Below, one piece after another: positions 1-15,055 of a DNA stretch of 64,000 nt. This DNA comes from Paraburkholderia flava (lineage in GTDB: Bacteria; Pseudomonadota; Gammaproteobacteria; Burkholderiales; Burkholderiaceae): assembly GCF_004359985.1 (NCBI RefSeq), contig NZ_SMRO01000001.1:186001-250000 (forward strand), given 5' to 3'. Under the pieces are notes generated by a model that saw nothing but the letters and a program-made list of their open reading frames with translations, ran no database searches and was not told where the DNA came from. The position numbers and the translations under genes were made by a program. Numbering within the stretch: position 1 is the first letter of the stretch; the number at the start of each line of letters is the position of its first letter.

Positions 1-1070
1 ATTCGGATCTTCTGCCCGAGCTGTTCGGCGAACCGCCGCGCGAAGCGGAATCGGATCTCGAAGCATTCCATAAGGACGTGGCCGCGAGCCTGCAGCGCAC
101 GCTCGAAGACATCCTGCTCGCGAAGGCGCGCTATCTGCACGACACGCATCCGGTCGACAATCTCTGCATGGCCGGCGGCGTCGCGCTCAATTGCGTCGCG
201 AACGGCCGCGTGTTGCGCGAAGGCCCATTCAAGAAACTGTTCGTGCAGCCGGCTGCGAGCGACGCGGGCGGCTCGCTCGGCGCGGCCGCCGTCGCACATA
301 CGCGGCTCACGGGGCAGCGTCCCGAGCTGAAGACGCTGCCGCACGTTTATCTCGGACCGGCTTACTCGAATCACGAAATCAGCCAGACGGTACGCGCGAT
401 TTTTCCGGAGGCGTCGATCGTCGATTGCACCGAGCAACCCGATGCGTTGATTGCCGAAACCGCGAAGCGTCTCGCCGACGGCAAGGTGATCGGCTGGTTC
501 CAGGGGCGCATGGAGTTCGGTCCGCGTGCGCTCGGTTCGCGTTCGATCATCGCGGACCCGCGACGTCCGGAGATGCGCGACCGGATCAACGCGCTCGTCA
601 AGATGCGCGAAGCGTTCCGGCCGTTTGCGCCCGCCGTGCTTGAATCGAAAGCGGCCGAGCATTTCGAACTCGACCACGCGTCGCCGTTCATGCTCGAAAC
701 CTGCCAGGTGATCTCGAAGCTGACGCTGCCCGCGATCACGCACGTCGACGGGTCCGCGCGCGTGCAGACGGTCAACGAGAACAGCAATCCGCGCTTTCAC
801 GCGCTGCTCGAGGAATTCGACCGACTGACCGATTGCCCGATCCTGCTGAACACGTCGTTCAACATGCGCGGCGACGCGATCGTGCTCGATCCGGTCGATG
901 CAATCTGGTGCTTCGTCGTGTCCGACATCGATGCGCTCGTGATCGGCGACTACATCGTCGATCGCGGCTTCAAGCTCGAGACGTGGGGCAAGCTGAAGGA
1001 GATCTTCAGCGCGCGTTCGGCGAAGAAGCGCGTCGCGCCGGAATCGGTCAACGTCTACACGTTCCTGTAA
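1..1070 (+). CDS. NodU/CmcH-family O-carbamoyltransferase, 5'-truncated by window edge
   Basis: The frame is open from base 3 to the stop at 1070 (355 residues visible), so the start lies outside the window. The residues match the C-terminal part of NodU/CmcH/TobZ carbamoyltransferases, which make a carbamoyl-adenylate from carbamoyl phosphate and ATP and carbamoylate a hydroxyl of a sugar or secondary metabolite. Seen: the end of the Kae1-like domain (GGVALNCVANGRV, then DAGGSLGAAA), followed by the YrdC-like domain with FGPRALGSRSI and NTSFN. These family signatures are intact. It leads an operon of four further genes with short gaps or overlaps. The acceptor cannot be read from sequence; a small-molecule or polysaccharide acceptor is inferred. 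Confidence 0.88.
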   Translation, partial: SDLLPELFGEPPREAESDLEAFHKDVAASLQRTLEDILLAKARYLHDTHPVDNLCMAGGVALNCVANGRVLREGPFKKLFVQPAASDAGGSLGAAAVAHTRLTGQRPELKTLPHVYLGPAYSNHEISQTVRAIFPEASIVDCTEQPDALIAETAKRLADGKVIGWFQGRMEFGPRALGSRSIIADPRRPEMRDRINALVKMREAFRPFAPAVLESKAAEHFELDHASPFMLETCQVISKLTLPAITHVDGSARVQTVNENSNPRFHALLEEFDRLTDCPILLNTSFNMRGDAIVLDPVDAIWCFVVSDIDALVIGDYIVDRGFKLETWGKLKEIFSARSAKKRVAPESVNVYTFL

Positions 1071-1092
1071 TCCGGCGCATCGGGCGGCCACC

Positions 1093-2235
1093 ATGTCCAT
1101 CCAGATTCCATCAGGCGACCGGTCCTGGGTCATCCGGCGAACCCTGAGCTTCGACAGCGCGACGCATACGTTCCGGCGTCGCGACGTCGAGATCGCGGGC
1201 TCGCGGATTCGCGCGGTGCTGCCCGCCGGCACGTCGACACTTGACGACGGGCTGGATGGGGAAGCGTTCGTCTGCACGCCGGGCATCGTCGGGATCGAGG
1301 CGCTGCGTGATCGCTCCGCGCCCGCCGCGATCGATTCGCTGCCGTCGTGCATGACGACCGTCGGCGTGTATTGCGCAAGCACACGCGATACGCGCCGCTG
1401 GCCCGCGACGTCGGCACGCACGGTCGCGCTGCTGAAGTTCGACGGCAGCAACCTGGAGCAGGTGAACGGGTTGCTCGACTGGTCGCTGACCGCGTCGCGC
1501 GGACGGGCCGGGCGTGCAGTCGCTGCGGTGAATCCCGCCGGTCCGATCAAGGTGTTGCCCGTGCTCGCGAGCGGCCGTCTGATGTCGGCGACCGAGATTG
1601 TCGAGGTCGCGCGCTTCGCGAAGATGCTGGGTACGCGCATCGGCATCCGGCTGTCGACGAACGCCGACGAAGCGCTCGAATTCCGCAGCCGTTTCTATTG
1701 CTCGGAAAGCGCGCTGATCGCGTACCTGCTGCCGCAGGAGCAGGACGTGACGGTGTTCGACGCGACGCGCATCGATCGACGGGAAGCGTCGGTGCTGGCA
1801 CGCGCGCAGTGCACCGTGTCGTTCGGCGAGCCGGGTGTCGGCAGTTTTGCGAGCCGCTGGCGTGCGCATGCGCCGCTCTTCACGCAACGCCGCGCCGCGT
1901 TGCACGTGCCGCGCGAAGCGGTGCGGTTGTTGCTCGCGCGTGTCGTCGCGCATGCGCCGGCCGCGCAGCTCGACTGCTATGCGGACGCGTTGACCCGGTC
2001 CGCAGCGGGCGCGCTGGGACTTGCCGACGTCGGTGCATTGGCGCCGGGCATGAAAGCCGATCTGTGCATGTTCGAGCGCCGCGACACCGACGACTACAGC
2101 ACAGGAAGCGCCGCGTTTCTGTCGCTGCTCGCGTCGCGTCGTCCGGCGGCGACGCTGGTCGAAGGTCGACGCATGCCGTTCGATGAACAGGCGGACCCGG
2201 TCGATCGTCCGTTGCTGGCGTCGGGCTGGGCGTGA
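1093..2235 (+). CDS. Amidohydrolase-superfamily-like protein lacking metal ligands
   Basis: 380 residues, starting 23 bases after the carbamoyltransferase stop. The C-terminal part has the usual amidohydrolase layout, including GALAPGMKADLCMFE (the end of the composite beta-sandwich domain), preceded by the Ala-rich helical segment seen in cytosine-deaminase and chlorohydrolase relatives. At the N-terminus the expected TPG-x-V-x-x-H-x-H block reads CTPGIVGIEALRD, so the HxH metal-binding pair is absent, and I see no clear replacement for the later His and Asp ligands. It is therefore probably a non-hydrolytic scaffold or a repurposed enzyme. Its operon position suggests a role in the same pathway as the carbamoyltransferase. 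Function unknown. Confidence 0.72.
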   Translation: MSIQIPSGDRSWVIRRTLSFDSATHTFRRRDVEIAGSRIRAVLPAGTSTLDDGLDGEAFVCTPGIVGIEALRDRSAPAAIDSLPSCMTTVGVYCASTRDTRRWPATSARTVALLKFDGSNLEQVNGLLDWSLTASRGRAGRAVAAVNPAGPIKVLPVLASGRLMSATEIVEVARFAKMLGTRIGIRLSTNADEALEFRSRFYCSESALIAYLLPQEQDVTVFDATRIDRREASVLARAQCTVSFGEPGVGSFASRWRAHAPLFTQRRAALHVPREAVRLLLARVVAHAPAAQLDCYADALTRSAAGALGLADVGALAPGMKADLCMFERRDTDDYSTGSAAFLSLLASRRPAATLVEGRRMPFDEQADPVDRPLLASGWA

Positions 2236-2352
2236 GGTACCTGTTCGCCGTGCTGTTTCATGTGTCGCTGGATTTCGCCGGCTGTTGCTGAACGGTCGGT
2301 TCCCGTACCGGAAGTACCCCTTTGTGGTCTTGCAAACTCAGGAGCTCCAACC

Positions 2353-4434
2353 ATGAAAGACAATTCGATGCGACAGGAACTGAGCGACCGGTTTGCCGCG
2401 TTGCTCAAACAGGACAACGCAGCGCTCTCCGTGCTGCAGTTGCTCGGCGAAGAGACGAAGCCCAACGACGCGCCCGGCGGAGATCACTGGTCGGGTCCGT
2501 TCGCAGCGCTCGCCGAAGATTTCGCGAGCCTGAAGGGACAGCACTCGGCGAAGCGCTCGGTCGGGATCTGGGAGGAAGAGGTCGAAGGCTCGGGTGAATT
2601 CGTGCGCGCCCGCAAGCACATCGACTTGTGGCGCTTCTGTGCCGACGTCGAACGGATTCCGCCTAAGGGCGCGAGCAAGCGCATCGTGCTGCTCGGCGAA
2701 TCGGTCGCGCGCGGCTTCTTCTTCGACCCGGTGTACAGCCCGGCGAAAGTGTTGCGCGAGCAGATCACAGCATCTGCTGAGCCGGTCGAAATCATCGACC
2801 TCGCGCAAAGCAACTGCGATCCGTGGTGGTTGTCGAAGCTCGCCGCGTCGGCGCATCTGCTGGAGCCGGATGCTGTCGTCGTGTTCGCCGGCAATAACTG
2901 GCGTGTGGGGTCGCTGGCCAGCACGTCGACGGAAGCATTCATCGCCGACGGTGAATTGATCGAGGAACCCCAAGGCTTCTCGAAGCTGCTGAATCGCCAA
3001 CTGGCGAGTCTCGAACATTTCGCGGGGCAGGTCGTCGATCAATTGACGTCGTCGCTGATGCAATTGAAGGTGCCGGTCGTGTTCGTGATTCCCGAGATCA
3101 ACGTTGCGGACTGGGCCAGCGCACCGGTCGGCGCGCTCGACGTTCCGCTGATGTCGGCAGACGACACCCAACGCTGGGTAGCCGCGTACCGTTCCGCAAC
3201 CGACGCGCTGCAAAACAAAGACTTCACCGCTGCCGAGCAGTCGATCCGCACGGCAATCGATCTCGACGGCGGCACGTCGTCGGCGAGTCTCGATCTGCTT
3301 GCGCGCGCGCAGCAGGGCGCCGGCAAACGCAACCAGGACGTGTACCGGACGCTGCGCCAGAGCCGCGACATCATCGACGATACGCGCGTCGTACCGGGCA
3401 TTTTCGTCAATGTCGCGGAGACGATCCGCCGCGTCGCTCCGCAGCGCGGCGCGACGATCGTGGACTTGCCGCAGCTGTTCGGCGATCGCTACGAGCATGA
3501 GATTCCGGGGCGGCGTCTGTACCTCGACTTCTGCCATCACACGTCGGAAGGGATGCGTGTCGCGATGGCGGCAACTGCCGAGAAACTGCTGCCGGCGTTG
3601 TTCAACCGCACCGCGCATCTCGACGATCTGATCGACGCGGCGTCGAAGCCCGCACCCGAGCACGAAGCGTGGGCGCATCTGCTCGCCGCGATCCATAACG
3701 CGCACTGGGGGCAGAACCCGGAGATCTGCCGCCATCACCTGCAACGTGCGAAGGACTACGATCCGTCGATCGCGCAGACCGGCGTGAAGCTCGTCTACGA
3801 CGCGTATAGCCGCAAGACGCCGCCGGTTCTGCTGCCGACCTTCGATCAACTGGTGAAGAACGATATCGCCGAAGTGTGCCTCGTCGGTTACAGCCCGCTC
3901 GCGCGCGGCGTGATCAAGGAGCAGGTGCTGCTCACCGCGATTGGGGAAGTCTTTCCCGAATTCGACGCACAGCCCGCCGATCCCGATCTGTCGCTCGGCG
4001 CGGTTGAGGCAATCGATCTGCTGGAATCGCACTGGACCGAGCTGACGGACCGCAATCGTTGGTATCGCCGCGCGTATTCGGCGTCCTACGGTCTGACGAG
4101 CGAGTTCACGTTCTCGTGCACGTCGCCGCTCGATCTGTCGATCGAACTCACCGCGCGGATTCCGAACGCGGTCGGCACCGGCCAGATCGCGGTCGAGCTG
4201 AACGGTCAACCGGTCACGCAGGCAACGCTCGACGACCAGTGGGGCTCGCTGCGGGTTCAGGCGGGCGCGGGCGTCGTGCGCGGCGGTCTAAATCGTTTGA
4301 CGATCGACTGGCCGGGCGTGCCGCGTACCGATACCCGGAACAGTCTGCGGCGGGATTTCGAAGCGGGGCAGAAGGTCGATATCCGCACGCAGTTCGGTCA
4401 GATCCACACGTTGGCGGTATCGGTCGCAGCATGA
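2353..4434 (+). CDS. Large SGNH-hydrolase-domain protein with TPR-like middle segment
   Basis: 693 residues from ATG 2353, chosen because a good ribosome site (AGGAG at 2340-2344) sits 8 bases upstream; an in-frame ATG at 2260 lacks one. SGNH blocks are visible: VLLGESVARG (block I, Ser about 117), FAGNNW (block III) and YLDFCHHTSEGM (block V Asp and His). Between III and V is an insert resembling a TPR pair (AAEQSIRTAIDL). The last 150 residues look beta-rich, like a carbohydrate-binding or jelly-roll domain. No signal peptide or membrane segment is seen, so it is probably cytoplasmic. SGNH enzymes are esterases, acyltransferases or deacetylases. Its stop overlaps the next start (ATGA). Confidence 0.75.
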   Translation: MKDNSMRQELSDRFAALLKQDNAALSVLQLLGEETKPNDAPGGDHWSGPFAALAEDFASLKGQHSAKRSVGIWEEEVEGSGEFVRARKHIDLWRFCADVERIPPKGASKRIVLLGESVARGFFFDPVYSPAKVLREQITASAEPVEIIDLAQSNCDPWWLSKLAASAHLLEPDAVVVFAGNNWRVGSLASTSTEAFIADGELIEEPQGFSKLLNRQLASLEHFAGQVVDQLTSSLMQLKVPVVFVIPEINVADWASAPVGALDVPLMSADDTQRWVAAYRSATDALQNKDFTAAEQSIRTAIDLDGGTSSASLDLLARAQQGAGKRNQDVYRTLRQSRDIIDDTRVVPGIFVNVAETIRRVAPQRGATIVDLPQLFGDRYEHEIPGRRLYLDFCHHTSEGMRVAMAATAEKLLPALFNRTAHLDDLIDAASKPAPEHEAWAHLLAAIHNAHWGQNPEICRHHLQRAKDYDPSIAQTGVKLVYDAYSRKTPPVLLPTFDQLVKNDIAEVCLVGYSPLARGVIKEQVLLTAIGEVFPEFDAQPADPDLSLGAVEAIDLLESHWTELTDRNRWYRRAYSASYGLTSEFTFSCTSPLDLSIELTARIPNAVGTGQIAVELNGQPVTQATLDDQWGSLRVQAGAGVVRGGLNRLTIDWPGVPRTDTRNSLRRDFEAGQKVDIRTQFGQIHTLAVSVAA

Positions 4435-5168
4435 GTCGCGTGTGTCTGATTACCGGAGTGGGAGCCGCGACCGGCGCGTCGATCGCGCGCCGGTTTGCAC
4501 GCGATGGCTATCGTGTCGCGATGCTGGCGCGTAATCGCGAGCGGCTTGCGCAGCTCGAAGCGCAGATCGACGGAAGCCGCGCGTACGTGTGCGACGTCGG
4601 CGATCTCGATGCGCTGGACTGTACGCTCGATGCGGTTCGTGCGGAGATGGGCGCACCCTCGGTTGTTATTCACAACGCAGTGTCGGAGACGTTCGCGACG
4701 TTTGTCGATGGCGACGCGGCGACGCTCGAGCGCAACTTCCGCGTCAACACGACGGCGCTGCTTCAACTCGCGCGTCGTTGTACGCCCGACATGATCGCGG
4801 CCCGTGAAGGCGCGATCGTCGTAACAGGCAACACGGCGTCGGTGCGCGGCAAGCCGAACTACGCGCTGTTCGCGCCGACGAAGGCCGCGCAACGCGTGCT
4901 CGCCGAGGCGTTGGCCCGCGACCTCGGACCGAAACGCGTTCACGTCGGCTATCTGATGATCGATGCGGTGATCGACGCCGCGTGGCTCGAAGAGAGCGGC
5001 CGGACCCGGCCGGCCTGGGCGGAGCCGCCGCCCGGCTGGCCGTTCTCGCGCGACGAGTATTTCACGCAGCCGGATGCGATCGCCGACGAGGTGTTTCATA
5101 TCGCTCATCAGCATCCGTCCGCGTGGACGTTCGACTACACGATCCGACCGTTTGCGGAGAAGTGGTGA
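4431..5168 (+). CDS. Short-chain dehydrogenase/reductase with Phe at the catalytic Tyr position
   Basis: 245 residues. ATG 4431 overlaps the upstream stop by four bases, implying translational coupling. The Rossmann fold is clear: the TGVGAATGASIA glycine motif at 8-19, CDVGD after beta3, HNAV replacing the usual NAG, and an RVNTTA helix. The active site normally reads YxxxK; here the segment NYALFAPTKAAQR puts Phe147 where Tyr belongs, four residues before Lys151. A nearby Tyr144 is out of register. An atypical SDR branch with FAxFAxxK and a later HVxxxxID segment is known to me in proteobacteria, and HVGYLMIDAVID fits it. It may be non-redox or use another acid. It probably acts in the same pathway as its operon neighbours. 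Confidence 0.8.
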   Translation: MSRVCLITGVGAATGASIARRFARDGYRVAMLARNRERLAQLEAQIDGSRAYVCDVGDLDALDCTLDAVRAEMGAPSVVIHNAVSETFATFVDGDAATLERNFRVNTTALLQLARRCTPDMIAAREGAIVVTGNTASVRGKPNYALFAPTKAAQRVLAEALARDLGPKRVHVGYLMIDAVIDAAWLEESGRTRPAWAEPPPGWPFSRDEYFTQPDAIADEVFHIAHQHPSAWTFDYTIRPFAEKW

Positions 5169-5225
5169 GTGGTTGCAGGCAGAATGGAGCGACACGCGGC
5201 TCGCGATTCAGGAACACCACGACGA

Positions 5226-5903
5226 ATGAAGAATGCAATGAACGATGCAGCGGGTGCGGTTCCTTCCGCATCTACTGTTGACGATGTCGGACTGCGTCAC
5301 ACCGACGTCCCCTATTACACGCAGTGGGGCAGCCCCGGCTGGGTGCGCGCGATCGTCGATGACGACGCGGACCCCTGCGACGATCCCGAGTGGCAGCGAA
5401 GCGGCTTCACCGATCCCGAGCGCTATCGCTTCTGGGCGGACCGGTTGTGCGGGCTGACCTGTTTCGAATCGGTGTTGGACTACTGGCACATCGCGCATCC
5501 ATCGCGCGCGATGCTGCTCGACGAAGCGCTGCGTCATGACATCTACCGGATGCGCGACGATGGGGGTGTCGATGGGCTGATCTATCGGCCGTTCGCCGAT
5601 TGGGTCCGCACGGCATTCGGCGTGCGCGTCGATGTGCTGACGGAGATTTCGATCGAAGACATCGCGGCGCGGCTCGATCGGGACACGCTGGCGATCGTTT
5701 CGGTGAGTCCGGAGATTCGCTATCCGGAGCGGCGGAACGAAAGGCGCGGCGGTCATCTGGTTTTACTGCACGGACGAGACGACAACGGCGTGTGGTTCCA
5801 CAATCCATCCGGTGTCGCGCCGTATCAGGCGGATGCGTGGCTGCCGTTCGACACGTTCGGGCGCTTCTACGCGCGGCGTGGGATGACGCTCACGCGGGCT
5901 TGA
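5226..5903 (+). CDS. C39-like papain-fold small protein
   Basis: 225 residues from ATG 5226; in-frame starts at 5169 (GTG) and 5184 precede it but lie hard against the previous stop and add unrelated basic residues. Seen: HTDVPYYTQWGSP near the N-terminus, LCGLTCFESVLDYW at about 74-87 (matching the catalytic-Cys helix CGxxSLxMxL of peptidase C39-like domains), and GGHLVLLHGRDDNGVWFHNP near the C-terminus (catalytic His and the Asn/Asp position). It has no ABC-transporter part and no signal peptide. In this operon it could cleave or transfer a thioester or amide in product release. It ends the five-gene cluster. Confidence 0.7.
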   Translation: MKNAMNDAAGAVPSASTVDDVGLRHTDVPYYTQWGSPGWVRAIVDDDADPCDDPEWQRSGFTDPERYRFWADRLCGLTCFESVLDYWHIAHPSRAMLLDEALRHDIYRMRDDGGVDGLIYRPFADWVRTAFGVRVDVLTEISIEDIAARLDRDTLAIVSVSPEIRYPERRNERRGGHLVLLHGRDDNGVWFHNPSGVAPYQADAWLPFDTFGRFYARRGMTLTRA

Positions 5904-5916
5904 GCGTTAGTGGTAT

Positions 5917-6114
5917 TCAGCGGCTGCGACGACCGTGTACCGCATCGTCCGGCACGCCATGATCGCGGCCCGCGGCCAGCATCACCTGATACTGGCTGTG
6001 GCGTTGATACGAGTGCCACATGTCACGAGCGACGTTGCGCAGCATGGTGGAAAACGACGTTCTGGCAGAGCGCGCAGGAACGAGAGTGGTGGGCGAAACG
6101 GGCTGGCTGGACAT
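5917..6114 (-). CDS. Possible small protein, 65 residues (uncertain)
   Basis: A short frame in the 296-base gap between the C39-like gene and the FadR regulator. The product has a basic amphipathic stretch (MLRNVARDMWHSYQRHSQ) and no family I recognise. It is supported by a perfect TATAAT on the same strand at 6156-6151, about 37 bases upstream of the ATG. Against it are the lack of a Shine-Dalgarno sequence and of a convincing -35 box. Plus-strand frames in the same gap are no better. Low confidence. Confidence 0.25.
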   Translation of the reverse strand: MSSQPVSPTTLVPARSARTSFSTMLRNVARDMWHSYQRHSQYQVMLAAGRDHGVPDDAVHGRRSR

Positions 6115-6128
6115 AATGGGTATGAGAG

Positions 6129-6159
6129 GGTTATTACCTAGGTGTTAACCATTATAACC
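6129..6159. promoter_or_regulatory. AT-rich island with inverted GGTTAT/ATAACC and TATAAT
   Basis: An A/T-rich patch in otherwise GC-rich DNA. It has GGTTAT at 6129-6134 and its complement ATAACC at 6154-6159, a further TTAACC at 6145-6150, and TATAAT on the minus strand at 6156-6151. It looks like a promoter with an operator, probably for the minus-strand small frame. The binding protein is unknown. Confidence 0.35.
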
Positions 6160-6199
6160 GACCCAAAACCTCGGCCACCCTCTACGGCGCCTGTGAGCG

Positions 6200-6937
6200 C
6201 TACTTAGGCGCGATATCCCGCCGCACCCGCATGATGTGCTGCTCGACATAAAAGGCCGCCGCATCCGCATCGCCGGCGACGATCGCCTCGTAGATCAGCC
6301 GATGCTCCGACACATACAGACGGATCCGGCCCGGATCGTCGATGCCGTCGTCCTTCAGGCGTTTCCACAGCGGCTGGTCCATCGTCTTCGCGACCTCGTC
6401 GGCGATCTTCACGAGCAGCGCGTCGCCGGTCATTACCGCGAGCTGTCGATGAAACAACCGGTCGCTATCGTTCCAGAGCGCGCGTTGCCCCGCGTCGGAC
6501 ACGTCCGCAATCGAATCCATCTGAGCGAGATAGTGCTCGGCGAGCGGATCGCGCCGGCCGTGCGCGGCGGCGCGTCGGGCGATCGCTGGTTCGAGGATCA
6601 AGCGGACGTCGAGCGTCGACGTCGGGCTGAAGTCGGGATCGGCGATCGGCGAACCTTCCGGTGGCGCGGCCGCGAGCCGTTGCAACGCGTCCGCGCAGAC
6701 GTAGGTGCCGGAGTTGCGCCGCGTCTGCACGAGCCCTTCGTTCTGCAACGCGCCGATCGCCTCGCGCACCGCGGGCCGGCCGACGCCGAAGCGCGCGGCC
6801 AGCTCGCGCTCGGACGGCAGCCGCGTTTCGGACGCGAAATGGCCGCTGCGGATATCGGCGCGGATGCGCTCCGACACCTGCTCGTAGATCTGCTTCGGAC
6901 GAAACGCGCCGTCGAGCGCAGGGGATGTCATGACCAT
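6200..6937 (-). CDS. FadR-type GntR-family transcriptional regulator of hydroxyproline catabolism
   Basis: 245 residues from ATG 6937 (second Met two codons later). The N-terminal winged helix (IYEQVSERIRADIRSG, LPSERELAARFGVGRPAVREA) is followed by an all-helical FCD effector domain with the metal-binding pattern visible in DVRLILEPAIARRAAA and EHRLIYEAIVAGD. Members repress or activate catabolic genes in response to organic acids. It is divergent from lhpH-lhpI with a 180-base gap, so it very probably controls them, with trans-3-hydroxyproline or a pathway intermediate as likely effector (inference). The frame continues far upstream of the start, but that extension is only the antisense shadow of lhpH. 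Confidence 0.85.
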   Translation of the reverse strand: MVMTSPALDGAFRPKQIYEQVSERIRADIRSGHFASETRLPSERELAARFGVGRPAVREAIGALQNEGLVQTRRNSGTYVCADALQRLAAAPPEGSPIADPDFSPTSTLDVRLILEPAIARRAAAHGRRDPLAEHYLAQMDSIADVSDAGQRALWNDSDRLFHRQLAVMTGDALLVKIADEVAKTMDQPLWKRLKDDGIDDPGRIRLYVSEHRLIYEAIVAGDADAAAFYVEQHIMRVRRDIAPK

Positions 6938-7006
6938 GTCGCCTGGTTTGCAGAACGGGGGACCCCGGCCGATCCGGATTGAAACCAGATCGCCGCGATT
7001 ATTTTG

Positions 7007-7077: not shown

Positions 7078-7110
7078 ATGATTGAATCGTCGGGACGCGC
7101 GAGGGGATGA
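7078..7110 (+). CDS. Ten-codon leader ORF upstream of lhpH
   Basis: ATG 7078 is preceded by a strong ribosome site (GAGGAG, about six bases upstream) and reads MIESSGRARG before TGA at 7108-7110. The lhpH start lies eight bases after this stop, and its own weaker ribosome site (AGGGG, 7102-7106) is inside the leader. The arrangement suggests translational coupling or a leader-peptide control. No family applies. Confidence 0.4.
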   Translation: MIESSGRARG

Positions 7111-7117
7111 AAGCGCC

Positions 7118-8125
7118 ATGAAACTGAATCGCGTGATCAGCACGGTCGAAGTGCACACCGGCGGCGAGCCGTTCCGGATCGTCACGAGCGGATTGCCGAA
7201 GATGCCGGGCAAAACCATCGTCGAGCGCCGCGCGTGGCTGAAGGAGCACGCGGACCATCTGCGCCGCGCACTGATGCTCGAGCCGCGCGGCCATGCCGAC
7301 ATGTACGGCGGCTACCTGACCGATGCGGTCTCCGAAGGCGCGGACTTCGGCATCATCTTCGTCCACAACGAGGGCTACAGCGATCATTGCGGCCACGGTG
7401 TGATCGCGCTCGCCACGGCGGCGGTCGCGCTCGGCTGGGTCGAGCGCACCGAGCCGGAAACGCGCGTCGGCATCGACGCGCCGTGCGGGTTCATCGAAGC
7501 ATTCGTCCGCTGGGACGGCGATCACACGGGCGGCGTGCGCTTCGTCAACGTGCCGTCGTTCGTGTGGCAGCGCGACGTGAGCGTGCAGACGCCATCGTTC
7601 GGCGAGGTGCGCGGCGACATCGCGTTCGGCGGCGCGTTCTATTTCTACGCGTCGGGCGAGCCGTTCGGACTCGAGATCCGCGAAGCAATGGTCGACCGGT
7701 TGATCCAGTTCGGCGCCGAAGTGAAGCGCGCGGCGAACGAAGCATTCAAGGTCGAGCATCCGCTGATTCCCGAGATCAATCACATCTACGGCACGATTGT
7801 CGACAACGCGCCGCGCCACCCCGGCTCGACGCAGGCGAACTGCTGCATCTTTGCCGACCGCGAGGTCGATCGTTCGCCGACCGGCTCCGGGACGGCGGGA
7901 CGCGTCGCGCAACTGTATGCGCGCGGCGAACTCGCGATGGGCGCGACGCTTGTCAACGAATCGGTGATCGGCACGGTGTTTCGCGGTCGCGTGCTGCGCG
8001 AGACGAAGCTCGATCGGTTCGATGCGGTGATCCCGGAGATCGAAGGCGACGCGCATATCTGCGGGTTCGCGAACTGGATCGTCGATGAACGCGATCCGTT
8101 GACGTATGGGTTTCTGGTGCGGTGA
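7118..8125 (+). CDS. lhpH: trans-3-hydroxy-L-proline dehydratase (proline racemase family)
   Basis: 335 residues. Proline racemase fold: HTGGEPFRI at the N-terminus, the first catalytic Cys91 in SDHCGHGVIALAT, and DRSPTGSGTAG where the second catalytic position is Thr255. Racemases and 4-hydroxyproline epimerases carry Cys at both positions; Cys/Thr is the established mark of trans-3-hydroxy-L-proline dehydratases, which eliminate water to give delta1-pyrroline-2-carboxylate. The downstream reductase for that product confirms the assignment. ATG 7118 was chosen over the TTG at 7082 because family homology begins at MKLNRVISTVEVHTGG. Cytoplasmic. Confidence 0.85.
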   Translation: MKLNRVISTVEVHTGGEPFRIVTSGLPKMPGKTIVERRAWLKEHADHLRRALMLEPRGHADMYGGYLTDAVSEGADFGIIFVHNEGYSDHCGHGVIALATAAVALGWVERTEPETRVGIDAPCGFIEAFVRWDGDHTGGVRFVNVPSFVWQRDVSVQTPSFGEVRGDIAFGGAFYFYASGEPFGLEIREAMVDRLIQFGAEVKRAANEAFKVEHPLIPEINHIYGTIVDNAPRHPGSTQANCCIFADREVDRSPTGSGTAGRVAQLYARGELAMGATLVNESVIGTVFRGRVLRETKLDRFDAVIPEIEGDAHICGFANWIVDERDPLTYGFLVR

Positions 8126-8195
8126 GCGTGGAGACTGGCGCATCGATCGCCGGTCCTGACGATCGCACCACAGAACAGACAAGGAGCACCTCCGT

Positions 8196-9131
8196 ATGAC
8201 CCGCCAGACCGTACAGATCCACGACGCCGCCGCGACCGCGCGCGTCACGCCGTACCCGGCACTCGTCGCCGCTTTGCGCACCGCGACCGCCGACTACGCG
8301 GCCGGCCGCATCGTCAGCCCCGAGCGTCTGGTCGTGCCGCTGAACGACGGCGGCATCCTGCTGTCGATGCCGGCCACCGCGCCCGATCTCGCGATCCACA
8401 AGCTCGTCAACGTCTGCCCGCGCAACGGCGAGCGGGACTTGCCGACGATCCACGGTCAGGTGATGGCGTTCGATGCGGACACCGGCGAGACGCGTTTCAT
8501 CCTCGACGGCCCGACCGTCACCGGACGACGCACCGCCGCGATGTCGATGCTCGGCATCGAGACGTTAAGTCAGTCGGCCCCACGCGACGTGTTGTTGATC
8601 GGCACCGGCACGCAGGCGGCGAATCACGCAGCGGCGCTCGCCGAGCTGTATCCCGATGCTCGCCTGCGCGTAAGCAGCCGCACGCTGGCTCGCGCGCAGG
8701 CGTTCTGCGACGCGCATCGCGCGCAGGCGCCGAACCTCGAACCGCTCGCAGGCGATGGCAATGGCGAAGTAACGCCGGAGTCGATCGATCTGGTCATCGC
8801 GTTAACGACGAGCCGTGCCGCTGTCTACGACGAAGCACCGCGCGCAGGCCGGCTCGTGATCGGCGTCGGCGCGTTCACGCCGGAGATGATCGAGCTGGGC
8901 GCACGCACGGTGCTCGGCAGCGCGCTGTTCGTCGACGATCTGGCGGGCGCGCGTCACGAGGCAGGAGACTTTCTGCAGGCGGGCATCGACTGGAACACGG
9001 TGACGGGCATCTCGGACGCGACTAAACAACCAGCCGACCGGCCGGTCGTCTTCAAATCGGTCGGCTGTGCGGCGTGGGATCTTGCCGCCTGCCGCGTCGC
9101 GCACGCGACGCTCTCAGCCGGCGGCGCGTGA
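8196..9131 (+). CDS. lhpI: delta1-pyrroline-2-carboxylate reductase (ornithine cyclodeaminase/mu-crystallin family)
   Basis: 311 residues with an AAGGAG ribosome site. The ornithine cyclodeaminase/mu-crystallin fold is recognised from HKLVNVCPRN, a substrate-binding Arg/Thr segment (TGRRTAAMS) and the Rossmann motif LLIGTGTQAANHAAAL near residue 130. Members reduce cyclic imines with NAD(P)H. Beside the dehydratase it would convert delta1-pyrroline-2-carboxylate to L-proline, completing trans-3-hydroxyproline use. Some members also reduce delta1-piperideine-2-carboxylate, so activity in lysine or pipecolate metabolism is possible. No transporter gene is in this unit. Confidence 0.83.
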   Translation: MTRQTVQIHDAAATARVTPYPALVAALRTATADYAAGRIVSPERLVVPLNDGGILLSMPATAPDLAIHKLVNVCPRNGERDLPTIHGQVMAFDADTGETRFILDGPTVTGRRTAAMSMLGIETLSQSAPRDVLLIGTGTQAANHAAALAELYPDARLRVSSRTLARAQAFCDAHRAQAPNLEPLAGDGNGEVTPESIDLVIALTTSRAAVYDEAPRAGRLVIGVGAFTPEMIELGARTVLGSALFVDDLAGARHEAGDFLQAGIDWNTVTGISDATKQPADRPVVFKSVGCAAWDLAACRVAHATLSAGGA

Positions 9132-9358
9132 GGTAACGCGGGAACACGCGAAGGCGAAGGAAAAGGAAAAGACAGTACAACGAGAGAATCGGCCCCACTC
9201 CGGGCAAAAAGTATTGCCCGGATAGCGTCTGGTGCCGTGCAAACATTCTCAAAACGTTGCACCATAGGCGTCTTGCAAAAACGGCCCGTGGCGGTTCTCG
9301 CGTGGTCGCTCTCTGCGCAGCCCTTTGCTCCTTTTCCCACGACGTCGCGAACCGCACC

Positions 9359-10834
9359 ATGACCAACCAGACCGCTCCTGCTTCGCCCGACCTGCCGCTC
9401 GACATGATCATCTTCGGCGGCGGCGGCGATCTGTCGGCCCGCAAGCTGTTGCCCGCGCTGTACATGGCGCACCAGCACGGCAACCTGCCGGCCGATACCC
9501 GCATCCTCGCCATCGGCCGCCGCCCGTGGTCGCGCGACGAATATCTGGGTTTCATGGAAGAGCAGTCGAAGCCGTTCGTCGGCGACAAGGCGTTCGACGC
9601 AGCCTCGTGGGACCGCTTTCTCGCGCTGTTCGAATACGTGCGTGTAGACGTCGGCTCGGCGGAAGACTACGCGCGTCTCGCCCAGGTCTCGCGCCCCAAC
9701 GTGCGCCGCGTGTTCTATCTCGCGACGTCGCCGAACCTGTTCACGACGATCTGCGACAACCTGTCGGCTGCCGGGCTCATCGACGAGCATTCGCGCGTCG
9801 TGCTCGAAAAGCCGCTCGGTTCGGATCTCGCATCCGCGCAGGCCATCAACACGTCGGTCGGTCAGCATTTCAACGAGCAGCAGATCTACCGGATCGACCA
9901 CTACCTCGGCAAGGAAACGGTGCAGAACCTGATGGTGCTGCGCTTCGGCAACGCGATCTTCGGGCCGCTGTGGCAGGCGCCGTACATCAAGAGCGTGCAG
10001 ATCACCGTGGCCGAGACGGTCGGCGTCGGCAGCCGGGCGGGTTTTTACGACGAAACCGGCGCGCTGCGCGACATGGTGCAGAACCACCTGCTGCAACTGC
10101 TGTGCATCGTCGCGATGGAACCGCCGGTATCGCTCGACCCGGACGCAGTCCGCGACGAGAAGCTGAAGGTGCTGCGCTCGCTGCGCGTGATGACGCCCGA
10201 AGACATCGCGCGTGACACGGTGCGCGGGCAGTACACGGCGGGCGCGGTCGGCGGCGAGCCGGTGAAGGGTTATCTGCAGGAAGACAACGTGCCGCCCGAC
10301 AGCCGCGCGGAAACCTTCGTCGCGCTGCGTGCGCACATCAACAACTGGCGCTGGGCGCACGTGCCGTTCTTCCTGCGTACCGGCAAGCGGATGCAGAAGA
10401 AGGTGTCGGAGATCGTCATCGAGTTCGCCGATCTGCCGTTCTCGATCATCCCGAGCGGTCCGCGCAGCTACGGCAACCGGCTCGTCATCACACTGCAGCC
10501 GGCCGAGTCGATCCAGCTGCAGATGCTCGCGAAGGAACCCGGCAGCGGCATGCACATGCTGCCGGTGAACCTGAATCTCGATCTCGAGCAGGCGTTCACC
10601 GAGCGCCGCGCCGAAGCGTACGAGCGTCTGCTGATCGACGTGGTGCGCGGCCGTCTCACGCATTTCATGCGGCGCGACGAGCTGGAAGCCGCGTGGGCGT
10701 GGGCCGATCCGATTCTGGCCGGCTGGAAAGCGTCGGCCGACAAGCCGCGTCCGTACACGGCGGGCACCTTCGGGCCGTCGGCGTCGACCACGCTGATGGC
10801 ACGCGAAAACTCGGTCTGGGCGGAAGAGTCCTGA
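9359..10834 (+). CDS. zwf: Glucose-6-phosphate 1-dehydrogenase
   Basis: 491 residues from ATG 9359; the frame is open 100 bases further upstream but the added residues are unlike the family. It oxidises glucose 6-phosphate to 6-phosphogluconolactone with NAD(P)+, feeding the Entner-Doudoroff and pentose phosphate routes. Seen: the nucleotide-binding FGGGGDLSARKLLPALY near the N-terminus, EKPLGSDL, and the active-site signature RIDHYLGKETVQNL (catalytic His in DHYLGKE). The length matches bacterial enzymes. It stands alone here, without pgl or edd, and is followed by a strong hairpin terminator, so it is probably monocistronic. Confidence 0.96.
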   Translation: MTNQTAPASPDLPLDMIIFGGGGDLSARKLLPALYMAHQHGNLPADTRILAIGRRPWSRDEYLGFMEEQSKPFVGDKAFDAASWDRFLALFEYVRVDVGSAEDYARLAQVSRPNVRRVFYLATSPNLFTTICDNLSAAGLIDEHSRVVLEKPLGSDLASAQAINTSVGQHFNEQQIYRIDHYLGKETVQNLMVLRFGNAIFGPLWQAPYIKSVQITVAETVGVGSRAGFYDETGALRDMVQNHLLQLLCIVAMEPPVSLDPDAVRDEKLKVLRSLRVMTPEDIARDTVRGQYTAGAVGGEPVKGYLQEDNVPPDSRAETFVALRAHINNWRWAHVPFFLRTGKRMQKKVSEIVIEFADLPFSIIPSGPRSYGNRLVITLQPAESIQLQMLAKEPGSGMHMLPVNLNLDLEQAFTERRAEAYERLLIDVVRGRLTHFMRRDELEAAWAWADPILAGWKASADKPRPYTAGTFGPSASTTLMARENSVWAEES

Positions 10835-10886
10835 GTCCGCAAGCAGGCACGCGGGCCGGCTAGACGCTAGCCCGCCTGCCGCAAGC

Positions 10887-10936
10887 AAATGGGGCGCATG
10901 CCGCCGGCGAATCTGCCGGCTGGATGCGCCCCATTT
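10887..10936 (+). terminator. Strong hairpin after zwf
   Basis: A 13-base perfect inverted repeat (AAATGGGGCGCAT at 10887-10899 with its complement at 10924-10936) encloses an inner GCCGGC pair (10903-10908 and 10915-10920) with a six-base loop. It sits 52 bases after the zwf stop and is followed by T-rich DNA. It fits an intrinsic terminator. Confidence 0.8.
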
Positions 10937-10977
10937 CTCATTTTCGGCGTCTCATTTTTCGCATCTCATTTTTCTGG
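10936..10977 (+). repeat. Three tandem 14-bp T-rich units after the terminator
   Basis: TCTCATTTTCGGCG, TCTCATTTTTCGCA and TCTCATTTTTCTGG lie head to tail at 10936-10977, immediately after the zwf hairpin. The T-runs could serve as successive release tracts. The remainder to 11188 holds the promoter region of the next gene; I see no clear sigma-70 pair there. Confidence 0.6.
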
Positions 10978-11188
10978 GCCTTTTTATCAGATTAATTGGC
11001 GGCTTTCCTTTTGAGCACGATTAGCGCAGTTCGCGTTTTACGTAACCGTAGAAATTTGCTTCGAAAAATTCGGTAGCGCTCACCCCATTATCCGACTTCG
11101 TGAGAGGCTAGGCCCGTCATGCTTTTACGCGTTTTATAGCGTGTGGCATGGCGTTTCTACTATCTTGTCACTTAAAAGAGGCCACATA

Positions 11189-11974
11189 ATGGATCGCCTT
11201 AATCCTGCAGTTTTACCTGCCGAATTTCGTCGCGAACACGCCGACGCCGGACAGCTTGAATCCTCATCCGCGTCACTGCAACAGGAAAGAATGCCGTTCA
11301 CCGTCCGTATCGTCGCCGACGACAACGGCCTTGAAAAAGCAGTGCAGATGCGTCGTCTCGCTTATAGCCGTCATCTACCCGATTTCGCCGAGAAGATGGC
11401 GATCGAACGCAGCGATCGTGAACCAGGCACGATCGTGCTGCTTGCCGAGTCGAAGCTCGATGGAGGCCCGCTCGGCACGATGCGTATCCAGACCAACGAG
11501 TTCGCACCGCTCGCGCTCGAACAGTCCGTCACGTTGCCCGACTGGCTGCGCGGAACCCGGCTCGCGGAAGCGACGCGGCTCGGCGTCGCCGGCGGCACGA
11601 TCGGCCGGATGGTGAAGATCGCGTTGTGCAAGGCACTGTTCATGTACTGCGGACAGGAACAGATCGACTGGATGGTCATCACCGCGCGTTCGCCACTAGA
11701 CCGGGAATACGAAGCCATGTTATTCGTCGATGTTTTTGGTAAAGAGGAGTTTTTGCCGATGGCGCATGTGGGCGGATTACATCATCGTGTGATGGCAAAG
11801 CCGGTGGCAGTCGCTCGACAACGCTGGGCAGAAGTGCGGCATCCGCTTTACCGGTTCGTGTTTCAAACTTCGCATCCGGATATCGATCTAAATCCTATGC
11901 ATTTATCTTTGGAGCCGGAAACGGTACGATGCCCAAGGGATTCGGAAATTGCCCAGCCAATCAGAACGAGATAA
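11189..11974 (+). CDS. FeeM-like N-acyltransferase (GNAT fold, AHL-synthase-related)
   Basis: 261 residues from ATG 11189 with an AAAGAGG ribosome site. After an unstructured N-terminus, residues 35-200 match the FeeM/N-acyl amino acid synthase branch of the GNAT fold, relatives of LuxI autoinducer synthases: VQMRRLAYSRHLPDF, a strand giving GTMRIQTNE, TRLAEATRLGV and a late HHRVMAKPV segment. FeeM joins an acyl-ACP-borne fatty acid to an amino acid; the substrate here is unknown. It lies about 100 bases upstream of a 7TM-GGDEF-EAL gene on the same strand. The two may form an operon linking a lipid-like signal or envelope lipid to c-di-GMP (inference). Confidence 0.7.
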   Translation: MDRLNPAVLPAEFRREHADAGQLESSSASLQQERMPFTVRIVADDNGLEKAVQMRRLAYSRHLPDFAEKMAIERSDREPGTIVLLAESKLDGGPLGTMRIQTNEFAPLALEQSVTLPDWLRGTRLAEATRLGVAGGTIGRMVKIALCKALFMYCGQEQIDWMVITARSPLDREYEAMLFVDVFGKEEFLPMAHVGGLHHRVMAKPVAVARQRWAEVRHPLYRFVFQTSHPDIDLNPMHLSLEPETVRCPRDSEIAQPIRTR

Positions 11975-12080
11975 CCCGGAATGTCGGCCAACCCTGCGCG
12001 GCGACGGCGAAACCGAAGCGGTTTCGCTGCCGCTGTCGCGGCACCCGCGACGCCCACGGCGAATCAGGGGATCACCACTA

Positions 12081-15035
12081 ATGAAAGCGGCGGCACTTTT
12101 TTCGCGATCGAGGGACATGCGTGCGGGGACCGACAGGCTGCTGTATGCCTTCTCGATCTATCTCGTGCCGTTGCTGATCGCGGCCGCCACGTTAGCGGTG
12201 CTGGTGTGGTCGCCGCACCGTTTCGAGTCGAGCGGCGCGCTGCCCGTCACGCTGCGCGCCGTCCACGACGAGCACGCGGCGCTGGCGCCGGCCGCGGCGC
12301 TCGCGCAACTGCAACAGGCCGGGCCGACGCGCCGCTATAGCACGCAGCTCGCCGAAACCCCGATCTGGTTCACGTTCGACGCGCCGGCGTTGCAGCCGGC
12401 GCGTCCGGTTTTCATCGAGTTGCCGTCGCGTCATGCGCAAACCCTGGCCTGCTGGGATGCGACGACGCTAACGCCGCTCGGTACCGCCGACCGGCTCGCG
12501 ACGAGCGGTCGCATCAGCCCGGTCAAGGCGGGCTTCTCGCTCGAACTCGGCACGCTGAGCGTCGCGCAGCCCATTCTTTGCCGCGGCACCTTTTCCGGTC
12601 CCGCGTACATCAACGCCTTCGCGTGGGACAGCCAGAGTCTGGCCGGCTCCGCGCTCGATTTCCAGGAAAGCTCCGCGCTGATCGCCGGCGGTCTGCTGAC
12701 GCTCGCGGTGTTCGTGTTCGTCACCGCGCTGATCAATCGCGAACTGACCTATGTGATCTTCTCCGTGTGGCTCGTCGGCAACCTGCGGTTGTGCGCGAAC
12801 GCGATGGGCTGGGACACCGAGTGGATCGGCCGCGAGATTCCTCCGGAGGCGATGCATCTGCTGCGGCAGATCACGTTCGCGATCTACTACCTGCTGACGG
12901 TCGCGCTGTTCGGCCGGCTGTTCCGCCGCGAACTGAAAGTAGTCGGCTACCGGTGGACGCTGCGCATCGTCCAGTACAACGGCGTGCTGCTGTTCATCGC
13001 GTCGTGCGTGCTGAGCTACGAGCATTTCATTCCGGTGCTGTGGGTGCTGAGCAGTCTCGGCATGAGCGTGCTGATCTTCCTGTTGACGCGGCTCGTCTGG
13101 ATGGCGCGTTCGCGCACGGTGATGTGGTACGTCGCGTCGATGGCGGTGGTGCTGTTCGCGACGTTCTCCGAGGTACTGGGCGCCGCGTTCGGCATCAAGC
13201 TGCTGTTCGGCGGCATCAATCCGGTGATCACCGCGCTGTCGTCGAGCATGATGGCTGCGTTCGCGATCGCCGAGCAGGTACGCGCCGAGCGTGAGCGTCG
13301 CCGCCAGGTGCAGACCGAACTGCGCAATACCTACGACGTCACGCCGATCGGTCTCTTCACGCTCGACGGCGAAGGCCGTTTCGTCCGCGCGAACCCGGCG
13401 CTGCGCACGATGCTCGATCTGCACCGCACCGACTACGGCACGCGCCACTGGGGCGATTATTTCGAAGCCGGCGCGTGGGCCGCGCTGCAGACGCTCGCGC
13501 ATCAGGGCAGCGAAGGCGAACTGGAACTTGCGGGCGCGGCGAGTGGCGCAAACGACAGTGCTGTGCGCCGCTATTCGCTGAAGGCGACGCGTTCGAACGG
13601 CTGGATCGAAGGCTCGCTGCAGGACGTCACTGAACGCGCGAAGGCGATCGAGCAGCTGCATTTCCTCGCCGAGCACGATCCGCTCACCGCGTCGCTGAAC
13701 CGTCGCGGCGTCGAGAAGGCGATCGCCGCGCAGGGTGCGCAGACGAAGCCGTGGGCGCTCGCGTATATCGATCTCGATCGCTTCAAGCTGATCAACGATC
13801 TGTTCGGCCATCGCGCCGGCGACGAAGTGCTCAAGCAGGTCACCGCGCGCACGCGCGGGCTGTTTCAGAACCGTTATCCGGTCGGTCGGATCGGTGGCGA
13901 CGAGTTTGTCTGCGTGATGACCGATACGCCGATCGACGACGCGATCGCGAAATGCCACGAACTGATCGCGGCGCTCAGCGCGGCGCCGTATCAGGTCGGG
14001 CGGCGCTCGTTCCAGGTGAAGGCGTCGATCGGGTTGATCGAATGCTCGCCGGGCGTGCGCGTGCAGGACGCGCTGTCGCACGCGGACCGCGCATGCCGCG
14101 AGGCGAAGCGCGTCGCGCATGCGCGGCTCGTCACGTATCGCAAGGGCGCCGCCGCGTTCGAGGAGCGCGCGAAGGAGCGGCTGCTGGTCGAATCGCTCGG
14201 ACAGAACCGCGTGCCCGCTGGGCTCTTTCTCGTGATGCAGCCGATCATGTCGCTGAGTACGCCGACAGCATCGCTGAATTTCGAGGTGCTGCTGCGGCTG
14301 CGTGCACAGGACGGCTCGACGCTGCCGGCCGGCAAGGTGATCGTCGCCGCCGAGGAGTCGGGCAACATCGCGGCGATCGATCGCTGGGTGATGACGACGA
14401 CGCTCGAATGGCTCGACGCGAACGCCGCGCAGCTCGCGAACACGCGCTTTGTCTGCGTGAATCTGAGCGGCGGTTCGCTGAACGACGAGCAGTTCGTCGA
14501 GGATATCTTCGCGCTGTTTGGCCGCTATAGCGCGATCGTGCATTACCTGTGCCTCGAGATCACCGAGAGCGTCGCGTTGCACGATCTCGAGAACACGCGG
14601 CGCTTCATCGCGCGCGTGCACGACATGGGCGGCAAGATCGCGCTCGACGATTTCGGCGCGGGCTATACGTCGTTCCGTTATCTGAAGGAGCTGTCGGCGG
14701 ATGCGTTGAAGATCGACGGCGAATTCATTCGCACGATGTGTGCGCATCCGGCCGATACCGCGATCGTCGAGGCGATCGTCGCGCTGGCTCGCAACCTCGG
14801 CATGCGCAGCATCGCGGAATGGGTCGAGGATCTTGGTACGTTGACCGCGTTGAAAGAGATCGGCGTCGACTATGTGCAGGGTTACGCGATCGCGCGGCCG
14901 CAGGAAAGCGGGGCGATTCTCGCGGCGCAATCGGCAGCGAGCTTTGTCACCGATCCGGAGATCGCACGCTTTGTCGAGAGTCTGATGGTGCCGGCCGAAC
15001 GCGGCCAGCATACCTACACCGCACGCGCGGGCTGA
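12081..15035 (+). CDS. 7TM-type sensor with PAS, GGDEF and EAL domains
   Basis: 984 residues from ATG 12081 (AGGGG 11 bases upstream). Order: short N-terminal helix (about 20-40), a periplasmic beta-rich region to about 190 resembling 7TMR-DISM extracellular domains, seven hydrophobic helices to about 400, a PAS-like segment (TYDVTPIGLFTLDGEGRF), GGDEF (intact IGGDEF, with IDLDRFKLINDLFGH before it) and EAL. The EAL motif reads FEVLLRL, but EITES, DDFGAGY and ALKIDGEF are intact. It may therefore make and/or degrade cyclic di-GMP; the GGDEF site looks active and has no RxxD inhibition site. Inner membrane. Probably cotranscribed with the FeeM-like gene. Confidence 0.9.
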   Translation: MKAAALFSRSRDMRAGTDRLLYAFSIYLVPLLIAAATLAVLVWSPHRFESSGALPVTLRAVHDEHAALAPAAALAQLQQAGPTRRYSTQLAETPIWFTFDAPALQPARPVFIELPSRHAQTLACWDATTLTPLGTADRLATSGRISPVKAGFSLELGTLSVAQPILCRGTFSGPAYINAFAWDSQSLAGSALDFQESSALIAGGLLTLAVFVFVTALINRELTYVIFSVWLVGNLRLCANAMGWDTEWIGREIPPEAMHLLRQITFAIYYLLTVALFGRLFRRELKVVGYRWTLRIVQYNGVLLFIASCVLSYEHFIPVLWVLSSLGMSVLIFLLTRLVWMARSRTVMWYVASMAVVLFATFSEVLGAAFGIKLLFGGINPVITALSSSMMAAFAIAEQVRAERERRRQVQTELRNTYDVTPIGLFTLDGEGRFVRANPALRTMLDLHRTDYGTRHWGDYFEAGAWAALQTLAHQGSEGELELAGAASGANDSAVRRYSLKATRSNGWIEGSLQDVTERAKAIEQLHFLAEHDPLTASLNRRGVEKAIAAQGAQTKPWALAYIDLDRFKLINDLFGHRAGDEVLKQVTARTRGLFQNRYPVGRIGGDEFVCVMTDTPIDDAIAKCHELIAALSAAPYQVGRRSFQVKASIGLIECSPGVRVQDALSHADRACREAKRVAHARLVTYRKGAAAFEERAKERLLVESLGQNRVPAGLFLVMQPIMSLSTPTASLNFEVLLRLRAQDGSTLPAGKVIVAAEESGNIAAIDRWVMTTTLEWLDANAAQLANTRFVCVNLSGGSLNDEQFVEDIFALFGRYSAIVHYLCLEITESVALHDLENTRRFIARVHDMGGKIALDDFGAGYTSFRYLKELSADALKIDGEFIRTMCAHPADTAIVEAIVALARNLGMRSIAEWVEDLGTLTALKEIGVDYVQGYAIARPQESGAILAAQSAASFVTDPEIARFVESLMVPAERGQHTYTARAG

Positions 15036-15055
15036 CCGCGCTTCTAAACAGCACC

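Follow-up and report, generated by a model that had tools for sequence, protein, structure and literature searches.

Mangotoxin of Pseudomonas syringae is produced by the cluster mboABCDEF, in which two ATP-grasp ligases build Leu-Ala-Arg and the diiron oxidase MboA, together with the reductase MboB, forms an alkyne in the Arg side chain (PMC13185094). The FVG clusters have as core genes gvgA, which encodes an SGNH protein, gvgC, and gvgF, which encodes a carbamoyltransferase (CTase) (PMC8064604; PMC4010436). In the aldgamycin cluster, almUII, almUIII, almDIV, and almUIV are homologues of gvgA, gvgC, gvgF, and gvgG, with roles called unknown (PMC8064604); aldgarose, the sugar of aldgamycin, bears a cyclic carbonate (PMC8048874). 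The locus compared with these systems here lies at the start of a 64,000-nucleotide stretch of Paraburkholderia flava (the window; contig NZ_SMRO01000001.1, positions 186001–250000 of a 6.97 Mb genome). Its genes for a CTase, a metal-less amidohydrolase-like protein (AmdH), an SGNH-fold protein, and a short-chain dehydrogenase/reductase (SDR) are the 3′ end of a ten-gene run, from the diiron oxidase gene HDO1 to the SDR gene, with four further genes in front. A small peptide or amino-acid antimetabolite is the probable product of this biosynthetic operon, whose tailoring end would lie in the window. The cluster, which is real and conserved, joins an mbo-like peptide core to a gvg-like carbamoyl module, both of known kinds. 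The initial annotation knew of no described pathway with such genes, and the exact set, upstream genes included, is in none of the literature searched, though its parts resemble the mangotoxin (PMC13185094) and FVG (PMC8064604; PMC4010436) clusters.

The window opens with the 3′ part of the CTase gene (NodU/TobZ type; residues 238–592; 1–1070), followed by AmdH (380 amino acids; 1093–2235), the SGNH-fold protein (693 amino acids; 2353–4434), SDR (245 amino acids; 4431–5168), and a C39-like papain-fold protein (225 amino acids; 5226–5903). All five open reading frames (ORFs) lie on the + strand, where the initial annotation had placed them, and its spacing also stands, with 117 bases between AmdH and SGNH, 57 between SDR and C39, and an ATGA overlap of SGNH and SDR, except that the CTase–AmdH gap, given as 23 bases, is 22. 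Both carbamoyltransferase domains cover the full length of the CTase in Pfam (Carbam_trans_N, E 1.7e-71; Carbam_trans_C, E 3.1e-68), and its solved relatives by structure-database match are NovN, GdmN, and TobZ. Pfam further assigns adh_short to the SDR and Peptidase_C39_2 to the C39-like protein, and NCBIfam is concordant for the CTase and the SDR. The amidohydrolase match of AmdH takes in the end of the profile only and falls under the cut-off, and the 693-amino-acid protein has no Pfam or NCBIfam match. A promoter and terminator scan of window positions 1000–6300 gave matches no more numerous than in shuffled sequence.

The upstream part, correctly placed outside the window by the initial annotation, was followed in a stretch designated L002, in which a position equals the window position plus 16000; several of its start codons are the analyst's choice. 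The complete CTase gene (592 amino acids) occupies L002:15292–17070 and starts 709 bases ahead of window base 1. The operon-like run begins about 8.4 kb upstream with a 99-amino-acid 2Fe-2S ferredoxin (Fer2; L002:7581–7880) and continues, all on the + strand, through HDO1, an MboA-like diiron oxidase (7937–8689), three ATP-grasp proteins (about 8710–10062, 10059–11414, and 11428–12711), the HrmI-like HDO2 (about 12828–13670), and a pyridoxal-phosphate (PLP)-dependent decarboxylase (about 13754–15178). The ferredoxin is preceded, on the same strand, by a major facilitator superfamily (MFS) transporter (L002:3839–5377), a 262-amino-acid protein without a Pfam match (5415–6203), and an HxlR regulator whose end is at 6958. 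The presence of two HDOs, three ATP-grasp proteins, and a decarboxylase suggests that the metabolite is of the small-peptide or amino-acid kind. The tailoring of a carbamoylated metabolite or glycan had been proposed for the window genes; what is supported of that proposal is a compact biosynthetic set in which the CTase stands with two degenerate partners. Modification of a surface glycan is highly improbable: a Burkholderia multivorans CTase of the same superfamily does lie among glycosyltransferases and an Azospirillum oryzae CTase–SGNH pair among sugar genes, but Pfam finds no glycan genes among the operon proteins, which comprise HDOs, ATP-grasp proteins, and a decarboxylase instead.

The nearest solved structure to HDO1 is MboA, the mangotoxin acetylenase (E 3e-18), and in an alignment with it, HDO1 retains the six iron ligands (E103, H106, E160, H189, D193, and H198) as well as the base Tyr82 (Y99) and Asp90 (D107) of MboA. 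HDO2 is nearest to HrmI (E 3e-29), which carries out lysine N-oxygenation (PMC13108848). The decarboxylase resembles DOPA and diaminobutyrate decarboxylases. The gene content, the layered conservation and synteny, the pairing of CTase with SGNH, the residues and modelled fold of the SGNH protein, and the conserved iron ligands of HDO1 are observed; the substrates, the reactions, their order, and the product are inferred as follows. The three ATP-grasp ligases would join amino acids; HDO1 with the ferredoxin would desaturate the C-terminal side chain of the peptide, as MboA does in mangotoxin; HDO2, judged by its sequence, may carry out on an amine the N-oxygenation that HrmI performs on lysine; the decarboxylase would supply or trim an amine; the CTase would carbamoylate an OH or N-OH of the peptide; the SGNH protein would act, through Ser117, on the carbamate or carbamoylated product by transfer, ring closure, or hydrolysis; and the MFS pump would export the product. 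AmdH and the SDR may serve as binding or accessory proteins. The best guess for the product is a short peptide whose C-terminal residue, probably one other than Arg, is desaturated and which carries an N-oxygenated amine.

Among 398 genomes of the family, the SGNH gene occurs in nine and all ten genes from HDO1 to SDR in six, the window genome included, at 48–90% identity across the six. The other five operon genomes are Paraburkholderia terricola, Trinickia diaoshuihuensis, Caballeronia sp. SEWSISQ10-4, Burkholderia sp. SRS-46, and G097. AmdH is the least conserved operon gene (48–60% identity), and in SEWSISQ10-4 and SRS-46 the order is CTase, directly SGNH, then AmdH; SRS-46 also carries a second SGNH copy and additional genes, two of them transporter-like. 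The ferredoxin is present in all six. The HxlR gene lies nearby at 84% identity or more in five, SRS-46 having only a weak match (45%, other strand), and the 262-amino-acid gene occurs in every one of the six, truncated at the edge of the fetched DNA in two and located downstream of SDR in SRS-46.

The genes of the operon are conserved in layers. With HDO1 as the query, matches occur in 35 of the 398 genomes, and identity reaches 74% or more at 18 places, spread over 17 genomes. The ferredoxin, HDO1, and the three ATP-grasp genes stand together at every one of these 18 places, and within about 20 kb around them, HDO2 and the decarboxylase are found at 11, the SDR at seven, and CTase–AmdH–SGNH at six. 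The peptide core also occurs without the CTase set on plasmids of Burkholderia stagnalis, where HDO2 and the decarboxylase are present and divergent, and of Streptomyces cyaneofuscatus, where an FAD/NAD(P) oxidoreductase accompanies it. The window genes thus give the impression of a module attached to a peptide core, and we read the whole as an ATP-grasp peptide cluster akin to that of mangotoxin, to which a carbamoylation module would have been added. At least 25 HDO/ATP-grasp cluster types are reported in a supplementary figure of PMC13185094, and the present cluster may be among them. As a separate observation, genome G122 has two copies of the peptide core (L018 and L106), of which only one includes the CTase module.

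The CTase and SGNH genes also recur as a pair. A scan of genome contigs from 84,980 species with the SGNH alignment yielded 50 loci, and in 44 of them the SGNH gene has a CTase match upstream, on its own strand. In 38 of these, the gap or overlap is at most 118 bases; AmdH lies between the two genes in two, a second SGNH gene is involved in two, the gap is 2.6 kb in one, and one is unmeasured. Two of the six loci without a CTase match (L035 and L049) sit at contig ends. According to their titles, the loci span Pseudomonadota, Bacteroidota, Acidobacteriota, Actinomycetota, Bacillota, and others, and this adjacency across several phyla is in none of the literature searched. At least 136 of the 398 family genomes contain a CTase with an E value of 1e-100 or better; among the matches listed, full-length CTases of at least 57% identity occur in exactly the nine SGNH genomes, the next full-length ones reaching 48% and some partial ones 51%. 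A CTase is found in 326 plasmid records; the best match is 56% identical and the next listed 47%, and the best is the sole record with an SGNH gene at E 1e-5. The identities of the two proteins rise together in the 36 of the 44 loci used (Pearson 0.80; Spearman 0.67, the highest of 2000 shuffles being 0.25). Loci L026–L029 are represented by L017, L019, L021, and L018.

Such a pattern bears on the role of the SGNH protein. It could be a common esterase or peptidase whose action frees or unmasks the product, for example through removal of a peptide or acyl group, the CTase merely decorating the molecule and the two being neighbours as late tailoring steps. This is somewhat unlikely, as the pairing with one CTase subfamily is strict both ways and extends across clusters with differing scaffolds, and other crocagin-like clusters bear a glycosyltransferase where the CTase would be (PMC10070186). 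The best guess remains that the SGNH protein acts on the carbamate made by the CTase.

The residues and the modelled fold of the protein are those of the SGNH hydrolase superfamily. The complete catalytic set, Ser117, G180-N182, Asp392, and His395 (Asp-x-x-His), is invariant in 50 of 50 aligned rows, and the modelled 693-amino-acid protein shows the SGNH fold. Foldseek gave mixed matches for the long model, and a second search was informative for residues 70–421 only, the helical part and the C-terminal beta domain being barely covered. The C-terminal domain has a weak Foldseek resemblance to CBM35-like domains. As to the alignments, the one used for folding lacks L016; A2 lacks L023, which is present in A3 and A7 under the name L074; and L049, L061, L071, L072, and L075 are absent from A3 and A7. 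If the protein were mainly a scaffold, or a subunit presenting the substrate to the CTase, with the beta domain binding that substrate, the strict pairing, the correlated identities, and the CBM35 resemblance would be accounted for; this seems improbable, since the invariant Ser, Asn, Asp, and His argue for catalysis and the solved CTase relatives are listed as stand-alone proteins.

The surroundings of the pair vary. L016 has annotated NRPS (nonribosomal peptide synthetase) genes, and a protein of one large group, which we take to be NRPS/PKS (polyketide synthase)-like, lies near 25 of 53 loci by heuristic gene calls. A plasmid of Streptomyces sp. NBC_01431 has both kinds of CTase–SGNH pair (L016:14743–24422 and L092:1298–10932): the 690-amino-acid type adjoins asnB, ATP-grasp, NRPS, and lysine 2,3-aminomutase genes, and the gvg type adjoins a phytanoyl-CoA dioxygenase and a second CTase. 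L023 (Robbsia andropogonis), L024 (G338), and L025 (G343) share CTase, SGNH, and an MFS transporter, after which comes a long NRPS-like ORF; this seems to be a distinct cluster that is uncharacterised, and an upstream ORF in L023 and L025 is presumably AhpD-like.

Several observations weigh against the reading proposed here. The guanidinium-binding residues of MboA, Asn57, Asp61, and Asp139, are Leu74, Glu78, and Ser156 in HDO1, so that its substrate differs, and no MboB-like flavin reductase was seen in the operon, only the 99-amino-acid ferredoxin. No CTase match was found upstream of SGNH over about 10 kb in L040, L043, and L056 and over 1.2 kb in L033. The correlation of the CTase and SGNH identities may partly mirror species descent. 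Moreover, no HDO1 or HDO2 homologues were matched in CTase–SGNH loci outside Burkholderiaceae, so the pair says nothing about the peptide.

The initial annotation had described two proteins with missing or changed catalytic residues, and both are confirmed by their homologues. AmdH is without HxH at the metal-binding position in 9/9 homologues, the window copy having four His, none as HxH, and in the SDR the catalytic YxxxK is replaced by FAPTK or FAPSK, with Phe for Tyr, in 6/6 orthologues. The predicted structure of AmdH is too poor for use (pLDDT 47.9). A search of 5.8 billion proteins returned 13 AmdH clusters, that of the query included (7997 candidates scored), and the family occurs in five of 65 genomes of the genus of G268. 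Its neighbourhoods were inspected, with heuristic gene calls, at three loci outside the operon. In L098 and L099, a CTase, a long HDO, and an SGNH of gvg type lie with AmdH within about 10 kb, so that in two different cluster types the metal-less amidohydrolase is found alongside CTase, SGNH, and HDO; its presence in gvg-type Burkholderia clusters is in none of the literature searched. At L098:3700–15600 (G333), the gene content is unlike that of the FVG cluster, and the ORFs beside AmdH and the trio are presumably carrier-protein-, methyltransferase-, desaturase-, and P450-like. The third locus, L097 of genome G367, holds an AmdH homologue (46%; 10936–12066) with no gvg-type SGNH, HDO, or CTase match nearby and no CTase or SGNH match within 20 kb; the peptide core with HDO2, decarboxylase, and SDR lies on another contig of that genome (L103). 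A metallohydrolase inserted into Burkholderia and Thiomonas gvg clusters has been described (PMC8064604), and it may be AmdH.

The trio itself was seen in Agrobacterium vitis, where a 666-amino-acid PF14518 protein, a CTase, and a 363-amino-acid SGNH protein lie together, and, judged by positions, in Photobacterium and Acinetobacter records. From this neighbour trio, and not from the gvgC sequence, gvgC is inferred to be an HDO. In the gvg-like loci of Pantoea At-9b and Streptomyces NBC_01431, a phytanoyl-CoA dioxygenase is present, and none of the annotated genes is an HDO. Membership of the 693-amino-acid protein in the gvg SGNH family finds no support in its sequence, its family profile scoring −2.8 and −3.1 bits against two SGNH proteins of gvg type; an Azospirillum SGNH protein reached a weak 13.9 bits in the same comparison.

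It is conceivable, if doubtful, that the CTase and the 690-amino-acid SGNH protein form a two-step machine across phyla, with the carbamate as an activated intermediate. The SGNH serine would attack the carbamate and transfer its carbonyl to an adjacent OH or NH, releasing ammonia and giving a cyclic carbonate, cyclic carbamate, or urea, or the machine would lead, together with an HDO, to an N–O bond, and FVG and the aldgarose carbonate, whose clusters reportedly carry similar genes (PMC8064604; PMC8048874), would be other outputs of the same logic. The carbonate of aldgarose and the gvgA/C/F/G homologues of the aldgamycin cluster would fit such a putative ring closure. A quite unlikely variant takes the carbamate as a nitrogen source: CTase, SGNH, and an N-oxygenating HDO would turn R-OH to R-O-NH2 via an N-oxidised carbamate, and might also build the N–O bond of FVG. 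FVG, judged by name and structure, contains an N–O bond and is free of any carbamoyl group, although its cluster requires gvgA, gvgC, and gvgF, the CTase gene (PMC8064604; PMC4010436; PMC8067088). The gvg-type trios combine SGNH, the 666-amino-acid PF14518 protein, and CTase, the AmdH family stands at two Burkholderia loci bearing such a trio, and the operon itself has CTase, SGNH, AmdH, and two HDOs. However, the 693-amino-acid SGNH protein is not recognisably akin in sequence to the gvg type, HDO1 and HDO2 have no match in CTase–SGNH loci of other families, the Pantoea and NBC_01431 loci carry the dioxygenase and lack an annotated HDO, the assignment of gvgC comes from its neighbours, and the mechanism is a proposal of the present analysis.

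The fifth window gene proved to be a neighbour rather than a conserved operon member, so that of the five-gene cluster first proposed, CTase, AmdH, SGNH, and SDR occur together (6 of 398 genomes) and C39 does not belong with them. It is present in 69 of the 398 genomes but in only two of the six with the operon, the window genome and G345, where the copy is on another contig, and the fetched operon stretches of the other five operon genomes gave no match. At 11/11 other loci of the same genus (C39 71–78% identical), no SDR lies within about 1.5 kb. A role as a working operon member was ruled out on these two counts. The Cys and His are identical in 12/12 copies, the frames having been chosen by the motif containing the Cys, which all 11 loci yielded. 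In the gap separating SDR from C39 no terminator-like site was detected, so the gene may be co-transcribed here. In Mycetohabitans endofungorum (L005:18001–18600), a C39 homologue is in three pieces with no annotated gene, probably a broken copy. The next + strand gene past C39 (window 7082–8125) is presumably of the hydroxyproline epimerase/proline racemase kind, and between the two sits a gene on the − strand that we take to be GntR-like.

If the reading holds, the operon would represent a new group of ATP-grasp/HDO peptides in Burkholderiaceae, made by a cluster that grew in layers testable gene by gene. One CTase subfamily, common in uncharacterised clusters, would gain a constant partner, and the function of the CTase–SGNH pair would make the origin of the FVG N–O bond and of the aldgarose carbonate testable.

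Compared with known systems, the operon shares with the mangotoxin cluster (PMC13185094) an MboA-like HDO with its iron ligands, base Tyr, and Asp90, a redox-partner gene adjoining the HDO, and ATP-grasp amino-acid ligases. It differs in having three ATP-grasp genes against two, a bare ferredoxin in place of a flavin-2Fe2S reductase, and changed Arg-binding residues, and it adds the HrmI-like HDO, decarboxylase, CTase, SGNH, AmdH, and SDR; no arginine deiminase of the MboE type was seen among the operon proteins by Pfam. With the FVG (gvg/pnp1) clusters (PMC8064604; PMC4010436), it shares a CTase and an SGNH protein, the HDO of the fetched gvg-type loci, and the AmdH homologue of two Burkholderia gvg-type loci, whereas the gvg SGNH belongs to another family (about 330–370 amino acids), the CTases are only about 42% identical, and the operon has an ATP-grasp peptide core and, by Pfam, no gvgI-type formyltransferase. 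The aldgamycin cluster, compared by its published description (PMC8064604) and not by sequence, resembles it in the gvgA/C/F/G homologues and differs in that aldgamycin is a macrolide. The crocagin cluster, with the SGNH-fold protease CgnD and the CTase CgnI, differs in its ribosomal precursor and in the role of CgnD as a leader protease, and resembles the operon in bringing an SGNH-fold protein and a CTase together in a modified-peptide cluster (PMC10070186).

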